Shown here: positions 1,584-61,365 of the stretch, piece after piece
Position numbering within the stretch: position 1 is the stretch's first letter
Layout: each line of letters begins with the position of its first letter
From: Nannobrachium achirus
Lineage: Eukaryota; Chordata; Actinopteri; Myctophiformes; Myctophidae
NCBI GenBank assembly: GCA_963921795.1
Contig: OY997652.1
Coordinates: forward strand, 22,125,678 to 22,189,677
Length of the DNA stretch: 64,000 bases
Direction of reading: 5' to 3'
Notes under the pieces: generated by a model
The model's database searches: none
The model's input: only the letters and a program-made list of their open reading frames with translations
Told to the model about the DNA's origin: nothing
Made by a program: the position numbers and the translations under genes

Positions 1584-4500
1584 CTGAAAAGAGACAGTAG
1601 AAACATCTAAACTGCAAACATTGATTTTTTTTTCCTCTTAAATCTTTATCCCAAGGTTTTGTAACCCATTTTTCACCCAGTGCTAATTGCCTAAGCTCTA
1701 ATCCTGAGCGCTGCTCTCACTCTGCCAACCTGGGGAGAGCTCCGAACTGAGCTCATGCTGGCCAGGAGGAGGCATTTTTTTTTTAGGTTACCAACCCTAG
1801 GGGACAAGGGAATAACATGCAAACTCTACACAGAAAAGCCCTTTCGCCAACCCCACCTAGGGTGTCGGAGCTGATGACACGGAGGAGAGAACACGCCCCC
1901 AGCGTCCCCCGGTGGGAATCGAAACCAGGAACTTCTATAAAAATATGTATGCAGATTATACTGCAGTTTAAACTGTTATTACAGTGTTATATACAACATT
2001 TAAATAAAGATATATCGTATCATGCAGCCCCAAACGTAATCAAGCAGATGGAACCTTGTGCAGTGGTGTAAAGTAACTATGTACATTTATACCACATAAA
2101 AATGTTTTAGTTATTTGTACTTTACTTGAGTATTTCCAACTTCCAATACAATTCTACTCCACTACATCTCGGATCCAAATACTGTACTTTTACTCCACTA
2201 CAATTGTTTTTGTAAACTTTGGCTACTAGTTACTTTGCAGATATAAATTATTACAAAACACACATTAAGCACTTTAGCCCTATTTTATACCACGGCTATT
2301 TGAAAATAGCCTATCTACAAGCTCACAACAAGTCACATTGCGGCGCATTGTGGGCTTGTAGATCCGCTATTTTCAAACATTTAAGTACTTTTACATTTGG
2401 TGCTTTAAGTACACTTTGATACCAGTACTTTTGTACATTTTGTACTCTTGCTTGTAACAGAGTACAGTATTTCTACATTTCAGTATTGATACTTTTAATT
2501 AAGGAAAACATTTGAGTACTTTATTCCTCCACCACTGACCTTGTGCATGAGAACATGGTCTGAAGTTCTGTGGTGGTCTGGCTGATGTGCCACAGCTGCA
2601 CCATCTTGTCCTGAGACCATGCAGCCAGCAGGTTCTGCTCGTCATTCCAGGAACAGCTTGTCACCTAAACAACAAATCAGTCCAAAAAGGACACATTCCC
2701 TGAGGTTTGTACAGCAGCAGCTGCTTGACAGACACACACTGAGAGCTTCTTACTACCTTCCCACCAACATTAGCACTCCCATGTGCCCCTAGATACATTT
2801 CATTACTACAATTAAGATCCAGTGCAAGATCAGGAAGAGTAGAGTGAGCATGAATGCTAATGAACAAATGTCAAGGTAAATAGTCACACAGAGTGCAGAG
2901 ATAATAATGTAGAAAAGAAACTAATAGGATGAAAGCTACAATGAACCTAGCATCTGTCTACTCTAATCATACTGTTCTTGTAAACAGTGTCCATTGCAGC
3001 CATTGTATTACAACAACAACCTTTTGCTACGCTCTGCTTTTGACAGCTATCACATTAAAGGAGTAGCTCACCCATAACAATGACTTTTTTTCTATTGATT
3101 ACTCAAGCCATAGAGACTTGAGTTCAATAATATGTTTTTGTATTTGTCGCATTCCTAAGACAAAAATGTGATTATAGTAAATGTACCCCCATTGATTCCG
3201 GATGGGGACCCAAATGCATGGCACTGGATGGGGAAACCATCAAGGTCAATTTACTATTATGACATTTTTGTCTTAGGAATGCGAGAAATAATATATATAC
3301 TGTATTATTGAACTCAAGTCTCCATGGGTTGAGTAATCAATAAAAGAAAAATAAACATTTTGGGGTGAACTACTCCTATAACTTGCAAATCAAGGATTTT
3401 CCACATGAAATATCAATATTTTTAGATCCAGCCAGAGCTACAAAATCTCTATCTTGTCAACAAAGCCTGCAGTATGCACCGGAGAATAATGCATGCTATT
3501 ACTATATCAGACCACCTAAACTTGTCCTAAGATACTTGACACAAGGGGGCGCCCACTGGCCTACTGGTCCAGGTGCATACCACATAGGCATCGCCGGTTC
3601 GATTCCCGATCCGGACGACCTTTGCCGCATGTCACTCCCCGTCTCTCCCCCCATTTCCTGTCAGTCTACTGTCATATCCAATAAAGGCATAAAAAAGTCC
3701 ATAAACAAATCTTAAAAAAAAAAAAAAGAAAAGATACTCGAAAGGACACCTCACCCTGCCATGGTGTCCCTCTAGTTTCTTGAGAGGACATTTCCGCAGG
3801 TCTCCTGCCACGTCGCTGTAGGTCTGCGGCCGGGAAGGATTGTCTCTCTCGGAGGCGGCCAAGGCCTGCACCAGCTGCTGGGCTGCCCACTGACGGTGCT
3901 TGTTGGTCAGCCGCGCAGAGAGCGTGCACGCTGCCAGCGCATTGGCCAGCTCCAGGGGACCCACTCTGCCCCCTATGGGTGACGGGGGAGGAGGAGGCAT
4001 CCCGCAGTTACCCGGATCTAGGAAACACAACCAGAAGGGTTATACAGTATGACTACAGACAGTTCTTCCAGCAGTCAAAAGTCATAAATAGCCATTCATT
4101 TGTTCTCAGGGTTATTATAGTGAACCAAAACTAAGACTACAAGTAAAAAAGGGAAACAATATCTGATTGTCAGGCATTCTTTCATCCTACATCTTTCATC
4201 TTCTATAAATCAAGGCGTTCCATATAATATTTGAACACAATATCTCATTTTGAAATAGGGGTGCAACAGTTAACTAAAGTAAAGTAAAAGAAGAAATGTA
4301 CACAAGCACACAACACGTCGCAATGCAACACATTGTGAGCTTACGACGACGAAAATAAGTGCAAAAGTGGTAAATCAGATGAATAAATTCAGTCAATAAA
4401 AATAAAATAATTTGAATTTGTTGATTTGTTATATCACAAATTAATTCGGGAAAAGATATTAAATAAAAATATTATCGATGGAGTAAAAAAATAGAAGAAA

Positions 4501-7500
4501 ATAATAGATAGTTTCAGCATTATTCGGAAACTTTACATTTGAACAACCTCGATATGAAAACAATCAATTTCCTTAAGTGCCTTTCATGCGGCTGCCTCTT
4601 ACCTTTGGCTTCATGGTCAGCCCTGTCTGGGGTGTAGCGGCAGGGAGTGACTTTTTCTGTGAGCAGGGCCACCAGGTTCTGAGTGACCAGGAAGGTGGAG
4701 GTAGTCTGGTCCTTGTAGTCTTTTAGCTGTGTCCCCTGTAGTCCAGCTTTTAGACTGGAGCTCAGGCGACCTCTCTGCTGAGGGTCGCTGATCGCCCCGA
4801 TGTTCATTCCAGTGGCCGCAGCCATCAGGTCCTACAGGAAGTAACCAGTGGTGTAAAGTAACTACTGTAAGTGCATTTACTTGAATACCGTACCTAAGTA
4901 TAATTGTAAGGTATATTTAAATAGAACAGGGATCTTCAACAGGGGGTCAGGGACACCTAGGGGGTCCTCAGAGTTACTACAGGGGGTCCTCCAAATCTTT
5001 GTGTGATAGAAACCTTTTTTTCTCATTTTTTATATCAACCACTTGAACCCTAGTGTCCATATTCAGAGAACTTTAGCCAAAAATAGCAGATCGACAAGCT
5101 CACAACGCCTCGCAACGTGTTGTGAGCTTGTAGATCGGCTATTTTCTGCAAAAAGGTTTGGTGTAGAGGGGAAAAAGAGCAGACTAAGTACAGAGTGAAA
5201 GGTCACGTTAACTAAGTATTGACAGTTCAAGTCGTTAAATATCTCAAATTGACATGAATCCAAAATATACTGAGGATAGTGCTGTCAAACAATGAAACCA
5301 TATGGAACCTATGAAAAGTTTGAGGGGGTCCCTGCTTCATCTCTCTCTCAACTAAGGGGTCCTTGGCCTGAAAACGTTGAAGACCCCCTGGCACAGAAAT
5401 ATGGGTATTCCATTCCAGCATGAGTCTGACCTGAGTGCAGATGTCCATCAGCTCTCTATAAGCGGTAGAGTTCTGAGACACCAGGCTGCCGATGGCTGAG
5501 CTGAGGAAGCTGATGATGGTGGAGCTGCTGTGATCTGTGGACAGGCTGCGTGCGCTCTGCTCCTTACAGCCCTGGTTGTCCATGCTGGTGTGGGTCCGTC
5601 CGGCCACCGCCAGGCACATCAGTCGCACCAGGATCCGAATATCGGCCAGACCCAAAGCCTCCAGCCCACTGGTTTGGCTGGATGCTGACGCACTGGCGTA
5701 GGGGAGATGGGAAAAAACAACAACAATTGGGATCATATCTAGGGCTGTCACGATTATGACGATTAATTGTCACACAAATAATTGTGATTAACGATTTAAT
5801 TATGTTTTTGTCGTTGACAATTACATTTCTGTTTGGCTTTTAGGCTTTGAAGTTACACATGGCAGATACGACACATAACCTAAATATGCAAATACCGGTG
5901 CTGACATATTTGACAACTTTATAATAAAAAGAACATTGACAGTGGAAATAGCTGATCTACAAGCTCACAACGCATCACGATGCGACGTGTTGTGAGCTTG
6001 TAGATCTGCTATTTCCAACATTTTTTTAAATGTTTGAAAATATATGAAACTTTCTAAACATGGAAACGATCATGATGATTATGACAAAATAATTGCGATT
6101 CTGTCAAATAATTGCGATAAAACGATTATGTAATAATTGCGATAAGACGATTATGTATAATTGTAACAGGCCAAATCATATCAAAAGAATAATTCTCAAC
6201 TTCAAGATAGTAAAAAATAAAAAAGGTAGTGAATAGTGATATTATATGCTGCTCCAGATTACCTGGAGGCGGTTTGAGACAGTGCTTTCATGACCATGCT
6301 GTAAGCCAACAGTATCTGTGCTGTGGAGGTGACCCTCCTCAAGGCCTTCAGTCTGTCCTGGAAGTCTTTCAGAGAGGCGGCCTGCTCCCCTAAGCTGGGA
6401 GGAGAGCCCTTCTGCTCAGCGCCTGGACAAGGAGCAAAACATCAATCGCACCAGGTTATGACAAAATAATTGTGATTATGTCAAATAATGGCGATTATAC
6501 CAGGGGTCTTCAACGTTTTCAGGCCAAGGACCCCTTAGCTGAGAGGGAGATAAAGTAGGAAACCCCACTACATATTGTATAAAATTGTGTAGCAGATCTA
6601 GTGCGGATTTCATAGATAGATTCATAGACTTGTTTGACAGCACTGTCATCAGTCTATGTTTTAACCACATTTAACCACTTGACCTCTACACCAAACCTAT
6701 TTGCAAAAAATATCCGATCTACATGCTCTCAACGCTTCTGCGCTGCGAGGCGCTGAGAGCTTGTAGATCTGCTATTTTTGGCTAAAATTCTCCTCAGAAT
6801 AGGGATGCGAGGGTTCAAGTTGTTCATTTAAAATAATTATCCTATCACACAAACATTTTGGCGCCCCCCCTGTAGTAACTCTGAGGACCCCCTAGGGGTC
6901 CCGGACCCCCAGCTGAAGACCCCTGGATCAGGTGATTATGTAATAATTGTGACAGGCCTATATGGAGATACAAGGTTTCTGCCTGCCAGCAGCAATAAGC
7001 GTCCAGTACCTTTGGGGACCAGTGCTCTGGTGTTATTCTCTGTGGAGCTGTGGACCAGGGCTCCCAGGGGGTCTGGCTCTGTGAAAGGGATGGGATCGGG
7101 GATCAGTTTCTTTTCGGTCAGCCCCAGCGGTCTCAGCAAGACCCCAAAGTCTTCCAGTCCCGTAAGCTTGTCTGTGTCACTGTCATCTTGCTGACCCATC
7201 TCCCAGTCATCTGAGGTGAAGGGGGAGAAAAAAACACATCATTCATTTGCTTAAATGAATTAAACTGAAATAAGAAATGGATGATACTGCATTGTACAAC
7301 AAAAATATACTGAAACCGATATTTAGAAGTAGAACTAATAATCAGACTTGGAACACCTACGCTGTTACACCTTTCTAGTCGGGAACGTGTCATTTTAGTT
7401 TAATTACTTTTTTTAAAGATTTTTGAATAGAATGTTTTTCAGAATTTAGAAGGCGATTTTAGAATCAGCCTCAGGCCTAAATGGGTTAATCTTTGACAAT

Positions 7501-60956: not shown

Positions 60957-61365
60957 CTAGGGCTGTCACGATTATGACATTTTACATGGTGATTTTGTCA
61001 CTCAAATAATTGCGATTAATAATTAAATATTAGGCTTTGAAGTTGCACATGGCAGATATGACACATAACCTAAATATACAAAGAAATGTCATATTTGACA
61101 ACTTTATAACATTTTTTTAAATGTATTCTAATTTATAAAAATAACATAACATAGTGGTGATCTACAAGCACACATGTCACATCACGATGCGTTGTGAGCT
61201 TGTAGATCTGCTATTTCCACTGTCCCTTTGAAAATGTTTGAAAATATATTAGATTACGATTATGACGAACGATTATGACAAAATAATTGCGATTATGTGA
61301 AATAATTGCGATTTTGTCAATAATTGCGATTAGACGATTATGTAATAATTGTGACAGGAGGCCTA
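60957..61365. mobile_element. A-family hAT-like MITE (copy A4)
   Basis: TAGGGCTGTCACGATTATGA at the left and AATTGTGACAGGAGGCCTA at the right; exact 8-bp duplication GCTGACTC at 60949-60956 and 61366-61373. Hairpin 61154-61220 at its centre. Confidence 0.9.

Follow-up and report, generated by a model that had tools for sequence, protein, structure and literature searches.

Background

MADE1, a palindromic mariner miniature inverted-repeat transposable element (MITE) of about 80 bp, occurs as dispersed, free-standing copies, and Angel and the other palindromic MITEs of fish are likewise short, with the whole element constituting one family. We know of no core that is common to several families among the Angel-type elements. 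The subject of the present work is a hairpin of about 75 bases which recurs throughout a 64,000-nucleotide stretch of the genome of the fish Nannobrachium achirus (contig OY997652.1, C15 in our labels, positions 22125678-22189677; genome 1.66 Gb), hereafter called the window. In our judgement the repeats of the window resemble those of a teleost. This hairpin resembles MADE1 in its size, its near-perfect palindromy and its TA edges, and it resembles the Angel-type MITEs in being short, palindromic and found in a fish; but whereas MADE1 stands alone, most of the hairpins sampled here lie inside other elements.

MADE1 has been linked to mir-548 (PMC1784062). The highly conserved V domain of short interspersed nuclear elements, which is also found inside the MITE MER6 (PMC6887750), is the nearest precedent known to us for a module spanning different kinds of element: like the present hairpin, it is an internal module common to elements with different ends, and it has been copied while riding a DNA transposon, but the available text does not describe it as a palindrome, and it involves two kinds of element, compared with at least ten carriers and recombinants at the module here. 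The repetitive and double hairpin elements of sponge and fungal mitochondrial DNA (PMC2800124) are similarly short hairpins dispersed in varied contexts by a mechanism that is not settled, and those of Allomyces are reported to lack flanking duplications; they differ in being mitochondrial, and transposon carriers are not described for them in the portion of the source at hand. The tandem palindromic hAT-derived MITE gadMor-hAT-1784 of Atlantic cod (PMC12368964) is, like several of the carriers described below, a fish hAT MITE with internal inverted repeats, but no exchange of a core between families is described in the accessible part of that paper. Template switching at quasi-palindromes (PMC8794818) would account for the matching of the hairpin arms and for the extension of the palindrome, but it is a mutational process rather than an element. 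In the literature text, which was covered in part, no paper was recognised on a central hairpin common to several MITE families, which is weak evidence, and GATCTACAAGCTCACAA was not found.

An initial annotation of the window had proposed that one exchangeable hairpin cassette sits at the centre of six unrelated MITE families, and had interpreted the hairpin as a nested parasite that uses MITEs as vehicles, as a common core around which new MITEs are built, or as a structure with a function of its own; overall, this interpretation is partly supported by the analysis reported here. The explanation that we favour, and to which we give about as much belief as doubt, is that an old palindrome rides on its carriers and is passed between them through nesting and through recombination at the hairpin. 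The hairpin would then be an old palindromic core that seldom spreads on its own; short DNA transposons (several hAT-type MITEs and at least one TTAA-type MITE) would carry it, and transposition of these carriers would yield most of its copies. New carriers could acquire it by either of two routes: inside a nested MITE (a module here called N, in the carriers B, E and partly V), or through ectopic recombination, or template switching, from one hairpin to another, of which one conversion-like tract and one chimera of the carriers B and A would be examples. The hairpin is often the only long stretch common to unrelated carriers. Copying of one arm onto the other during replication would keep the arms matched and could lengthen the palindrome into the flank of the carrier, and deletion of the hairpin would arise from the same instability.

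Abundance and structure of the hairpin

With at most one mismatch allowed on both strands, the arm motif GATCTACAAGC gave 53 matches at 33 loci in the window, compared with a mean of 1.05 matches and a maximum of 4 in 20 shuffled windows. An intact hairpin yields one forward plus one reverse arm match, and more decayed pieces fall outside the 33-locus count, which is near the figure of about 40 copies, whole or in part, that had been estimated initially. Exact matches to the arm AATAGCNGATCTACAAGC number 20 in the window, where 9.7 would be expected from the genome mean, and 125,407 plus 125,388 genome-wide, while the reversed control does not occur at all. The palindrome is therefore real, and the window hairpins that had been named are present: a hairpin was read at all 17 of the positions listed as intact, although two of these are clearly not intact, one (43689-43756) lacking most of the right-arm TTGTAGATC and the other (61154-61220) having an altered left edge. 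The inner hairpin at 60160-60235 is additional to that list.

Broader comparisons used 99 hairpins, comprising those of the window and those of loci L002-L078 in this one genome. Loci L002-L008 were selected by similarity to the hairpin of carrier D, L009-L078 by the exact arm in the first 1.7 Mb of one contig, and the loci of a further element, P, by motif; L001, a duplicate of the window, was dropped, and hairpins in identical contexts were counted once. The sample is thus biased towards one chromosome end and towards exact arms; family counts accordingly describe the sample and not genome-wide shares, and copies of B, A and C were read in small numbers.

The inner part, GATC to GATC, most commonly measures 53 bases, and the cassette common to the hairpins is AAAATAGC.GATCTACAAGCTCACAACGC...GCTTGTAGATC.GCTATTTT, with G and C often immediately outside it. 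The description of the cassette as AAAATAGC.GATC...GATC.GCTATTTT is incomplete, since past this point the palindrome often goes on in a carrier-specific manner. This extension can be recognised because the two sides of the same hairpin pair more often than sides taken from different contexts (0.43-0.59 compared with 0.25-0.36 at positions 10-16 outside the arms), and flanks beyond the cassette tend in general toward inverted repeats. Within the arms, covariation was evaluated in 20 hairpins picked by us, one or two per carrier: 87.8% of cells are paired, and double changes are present in 12 of 34 pairs. Slid controls are 28-43% paired, and 0 of 500 shuffles reach the observed values, although these shuffle counts are not probabilities, the sequences being related.

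Five of the window hairpins fold with z scores of -9.9 to -15.4. A strong fold, covarying arms and the success of carriers with unrelated ends are all features to be expected if selection keeps the hairpin for a function, whether as a small-RNA precursor or as a cis-acting aid to transposition. A scan of the window against Rfam at the gathering score, however, gave 0 matches, and copies without the full hairpin occur in B, D and E. Template switching is moreover reported to create and repair hairpin stems (PMC8794818) and so also predicts covariation, which therefore needs no RNA function here. We consider a selected function very unlikely, and copying of one arm onto the other may be what causes the covariation.

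The exact arm pattern is also present in four viral contigs. Two other inverted structures lie in the window: a separate near-perfect palindrome at 38381-38702, with 161-bp arms of 93% identity and no spacer, and a long inverted repeat at 49247-49504, with 112-bp arms of 92% identity and a 34-bp spacer.

Carriers and the position of the hairpin

Clustering by half-flanks distributed the 99 hairpins over 48 flank contexts, a number which depends on the threshold and in which variant or decayed forms of a single carrier are in some cases counted as separate contexts. By our reading of the clusters there are at least ten distinct carriers, so that the six families counted initially are too few. 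The larger contexts are C (several clusters), D (12), B (10), A (6) and R (6), and the smaller ones include H, Q, T, U, V, E and an ACATGC-armed context named ATGC; R, Q, T, U, V and S (the TGGCTGTGTCCGAAATGCG carrier, L069) are additions to the original list. Four near-identical R hairpins (L009-L012, C1:26-35 kb) lie within 8 kb of one another, likely as a local tandem duplication, and the flank of the U carrier is present in several copies within one 3 kb locus (L029:1498-2133). The left flank of the hairpin at 1508 in L028 has many genomic copies at 99-100% identity and is probably a young repeat that ends beside the hairpin.

Fifteen elements, 13 from A, B, D and E and two from H, were examined for direct repeats at their ends, and six of them have such repeats of 8 or 9 bases, namely A5742, A63320r, B46703, D2061 and E55458, whose repeats are given in Table 1, and B636 (CTTTAGAT). 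A9085 has a 6-base direct repeat, and no end repeat was reported for A41717, A60958, B5390, B6500, E54015, E45694 or either H element, with GCTGACTC visible slightly farther outside A60958. Copies of each of A, B, D and E carry target duplications of the 8-bp type, which fits hAT-type MITEs, and the combination of TTAA ends with inverted terminal repeats that is expected of piggyBac-like MITEs was found for module N and for family C. When autonomous partners were sought at hAT transposase matches, by comparing the downstream ends for 20 of the 150 that were listed, A, B, D and E were matched only via the hairpin in a nested H element in L116. This H element (L116:730-901) lies, with its hairpin, shortly downstream of a 479-codon hAT transposase reading frame.

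Both ends could be placed for 14 elements of A, B, D, E and H; their hairpins are offset from the midpoint by 14-68 bp, at relative positions of 0.40-0.62, in agreement with the initial observation that it falls within about 80 bases of the midpoint in these families. In the two C elements measured, the hairpins are near the ends, at relative positions of 0.13, 0.87 and 0.14; the C element at about 29148-29738, whose ends were judged by eye to be TTAACCC...GGGTTAA, contains two hairpins, one near each end. C elements also contain, at window positions of about 29445-29545 and at similar places, a CAGTGGTTCTCAAACC stretch resembling the end of another nested hAT element.

Module N and the kinship of carriers

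In B the hairpin is contained in a unit of 186-210 bp, module N, whose 14-bp inverted ends, like TTAACCACTTGAAC and GTTCAAGTGGTTAA, start and end with TTAA; both ends are present in 6 of the 10 B copies examined, and in four of these six TTAA is exact on both sides. Carrier flanks were compared by scoring 378 pairs, with shuffles made only for scores of at least 26; two E consensus halves were typed by hand, and seven rows (two E copies on both sides, one V copy on both sides, and C12-inner) were left out of the comparison. The left flank of B resembles the E consensus (z 8.1) and the copy E54 (z 6.0), and its right flank resembles E54 (z 6.4) and V (z 7.0), with 0 of 300 shuffles in each case and with all of these matches in register with the hairpin. 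On the evidence of these alignments, B and E share both hairpin flanks and V shares one. Since the flanks of B and E match around a TTAA-ended unit, a nested TTAA-type MITE N probably brought the hairpin to these two carriers, and perhaps also to V and D; some 28 bases out, the left flank of D has a comparable AAGTGGTTAA motif, perhaps left over from the module.

The proposal of a nested parasite that uses MITEs as vehicles is thus supported for B, E and partly V, but the flank comparison, made with consensus sequences or single copies, revealed no such shared flank or module for A, R, H, T, U or Q. The statement that the carriers differ completely does not hold for B and E. Descent of all carriers from one ancestral element whose ends have diverged, which the initial annotation had set out as the finding that would overturn its view, can be recognised only within B and E and partly V. 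Applied to every carrier it is most improbable: beyond the lack of flank similarity in A, R, H, T, U and Q, the types of end differ, with 8-bp duplications in copies of A, B, D and E, none found in H, and TTAA in C.

The near-central hairpin in five carriers can also be explained by births nucleated at the hairpin, in which a single transposon end is joined to the hairpin and copied round by snap-back, so that a new MITE arises whose ends match and whose dyad is the hairpin. The left and right halves of H are similar (z 7.4), as such births would predict, and in L024 a B-left-like flank stands on each side of the hairpin, which is what snap-back copying would give; the carrier-specific extension of the palindrome and the palindromy of P (see below) are also in accord. 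However, the pairs A-left/A-right and D-left/D-right fall outside the best 25 of the 378 flank pairs, the similarity of B-left to B-right (z 3.9) probably comes about via the ends of N, C has two off-centre hairpins, and no birth intermediates were seen. We think it unlikely that the carriers arose in this way.

Exchange at the hairpin

The C element at 60160 and the A element at 61154 both carry the 24-mer ATAACATAGTGGTGATCTACAAGC, which with at most one mismatch is found at two places only in the genome, 985 bp apart. The tract was likely transferred from A to C, because the AGTGG part of it is typical of A. At L061, three B elements match the sequence to the left of the hairpin at 89%, and no A element does, while the sequence to the right matches all five of the window A elements compared (best E-value 8e-10) and none of the three B elements, so that L061 has the appearance of a B/A chimera joined at the hairpin. 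The B element of L061 (L061:1-370) also contains, according to BLAST matches, about eleven tandem units of a 31-bp segment that comes from its own 5' part.

Core types, which were scored at columns 30/44 on hairpins of inner length 53 or 54 only, cut across the flank types. The core pair is C-G in B (6 of 7), ATGC (2 of 2), H (1 of 1) and X44 (1 of 1), A-T in A (2 of 3) and R (5 of 6), and G-C in P (11 of 15), D (6 of 9), E (2 of 2) and C (18 of 22), the types of H, X44, E and A coming from few copies; E therefore resembles B in its flanks but D and P in its core. The two recombinants and these core types, few copies underlying some of them, support the description of the hairpin as exchangeable. 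By the same means, or by nesting, the hairpin may first have entered A, D, C, H, R, T, U and Q, with recombination and template switching as the candidate forms of exchange. A wider possibility, which we entertain only tentatively, is that the palindrome is a general joint at which the ends of different superfamilies are joined, with snap-back copying giving matching ends, such that new MITE families have been seeded repeatedly.

The palindromic element P

P was recognised from four hairpins whose flanks were otherwise unmatched and which have an apparently common right-hand sequence. A 23-base P motif, guessed from these four and allowed at most three mismatches, occurs 759 plus 733 times in the genome, compared with 0 plus 3 for controls, and paired arms were present at the expected place in 17 of the 30 P loci fetched. 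In L154, a good copy, P is a palindrome of about 135 bases with the hairpin at its dyad; the flanks, by reading, vary between copies, and L142 resembles P without the hairpin. P looks older than the other carriers, its copies being more diverged, and may be the oldest of them.

Copies without the hairpin

Hairpin-free carriers were sought by joining both flanks of a carrier into one query, which in the case of B favours short joins. All eight of the D copies read (from 40 places scored) are deletions at the hairpin, six of them with hairpin remnants and the other two with deletions extending into the flanks. Of ten E copies read (40 scored; the window copy included), four keep 17-19 arm bases, one keeps 9 and the others have short centres that differ, and of six B copies read (40 scored), five have a near-identical short join. 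No certain hairpin-free ancestor was found in these searches of D, B and E, and D yielded mostly deletion scars. Among the relatives of L069 that do not have the full hairpin, L102 retains an arm remnant, and L103 also has no full hairpin; the carrier S to which these three loci belong starts near GGCTGTGTCCGAAATGCGGAACACG, and some of its copies have lost most of the hairpin.

Several observations weigh against the explanation that an old palindrome is handed from carrier to carrier by nesting and recombination. The founding event was seen for no carrier, and nesting in N leaves six carriers aside. The recombinants documented are two only, and one of these, L061, could have been produced by a deletion fusing a neighbouring B and A at their hairpins, with the same outcome. 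U, T, L36, P48, S and the unassigned hairpins have other or mixed core pairs, and to this must be added the small samples behind some core types and the relatedness of the sequences scored for covariation. The case for P as the origin is its divergence, judged by eye in copies selected by motif. Six of the ten E copies without the full hairpin keep no long arm remnant. In a gapped-pattern search of B, finally, 21 of 49 short-gap copies by our count read GAAAATATTTTTGGC or a homopolymer variant of it, while one is joined at GC and one at AT, the others being mixed and many having remnants; of 16 short-gap copies of D, four are joined at TA, one at GC and none at AT.

The TA junction GAAAATATTTTTGGC in B is what TA-targeting insertion would leave, and the hairpin could itself be a minimal TA-targeting transposon like MADE1, about 65 bp long, with the form GC.GATC...GATC.GC between two TA, that has inserted a dozen or so times into AT-rich and often palindromic MITE centres. 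TA is present at both edges in 74 of the 99 hairpins and 31 of the 48 contexts, and it is the commonest loss junction although the stem base is judged to offer TA, GC and AT equally; L006:792, L008:159 and L025:1508 match only themselves among 40 scored candidates, and the differing flanks of the P copies point the same way. Outside the TA, however, AAAA and TTTT are present at both edges in 63 of the 99 hairpins and 27 of the 48 contexts, which is too uniform for independent targets, and the flank beyond often runs on as a carrier-specific palindrome. None of the 99 hairpins proved to be a solitary copy at an ordinary TA site matched by an empty partner, and no direct target duplication of the hairpin itself, as a single nested element, was seen. 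The TA class in B may be a single hairpin-less lineage, and microhomology deletion at TA gives an identical junction, so that the excess of TA fits a TA-bounded unit, one such lineage or a favoured microhomology, and cannot separate them. A TA-targeting hairpin transposon is possible but doubtful, and we retain the passage of an old palindrome between its carriers as the preferred explanation.

Features of the window

Table 1. Hairpins, carriers and related features, in window coordinates
Feature	Position	Strand	Element and remarks
Hairpin in D	2301..2375	+	D element 2061-2537; target duplication ACCTTGTG
Hairpin in B	5079..5146	-	B element 4927-5390
Hairpin in A	5941..6016	+	A element 5740-6174; target duplication ATCATATC
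Hairpin in B	6704..6780	+	B element 6501-6925
Hairpin in H	8168..8248	+	H element 8073-8316; target duplication not found
Hairpin in A	9306..9390	+	A element 9086-9514
Hairpin close to one end of TTAA-type C element	18064..18140	+	
Hairpin 1 of 2 in C element	29208..29286	+	C element ~29148-29738
Hairpin 2 of 2 in C element	29622..29697	+	C element ~29148-29738
Hairpin 1 of 2 in C element	37164..37239	+	Partner 37588..37662
Hairpin 2 of 2 in C element	37588..37662	+	Partner 37164..37239
Hairpin in A	41932..42007	+	A element 41717-42138
Partly deleted hairpin in H	43689..43756	-	H element 43618-43848; target duplication not found
Hairpin in B	46946..47020	+	B element 46703-47151; end direct repeat GAAATAGGG
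Nested TTAA-type module N in B 46703-47151	46852..47061	+	210 bp, hairpin at 0.62; left TCTAACC for TTAACC
Hairpin in B	51130..51202	+	B aligned 50950-51281
Hairpin in E	54136..54210	+	E element 54015-54367
E element without hairpin (loss or empty form)	55458..55829	+	Direct repeat CACACAAG
C-element hairpin	60160..60235	+	ATAACATAGTGGTGATCTACAAGC in left edge, 60161-60184
Second of two genomic ATAACATAGTGGTGATCTACAAGC copies	61146..61169	+	Inside A element 60958-61365
Hairpin in A, left edge altered	61154..61220	+	A element 60958-61365
A element, left hairpin arm lost	62959..63320	-	Direct repeat CTCCCCAG

Conclusions

How MITE families originate, and how a few of them reach huge copy numbers, is an old open question. 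With one palindrome present in at least ten carriers, and with recombinants at it, the birth of families by the swapping of halves at a common core becomes testable. The hairpins also constitute a very large natural set of palindromes within one genome, in which deletion, arm-to-arm copying and ectopic conversion can be measured. The signs of sequence swapping at the palindrome suggest a route by which families of elements may be reshuffled.

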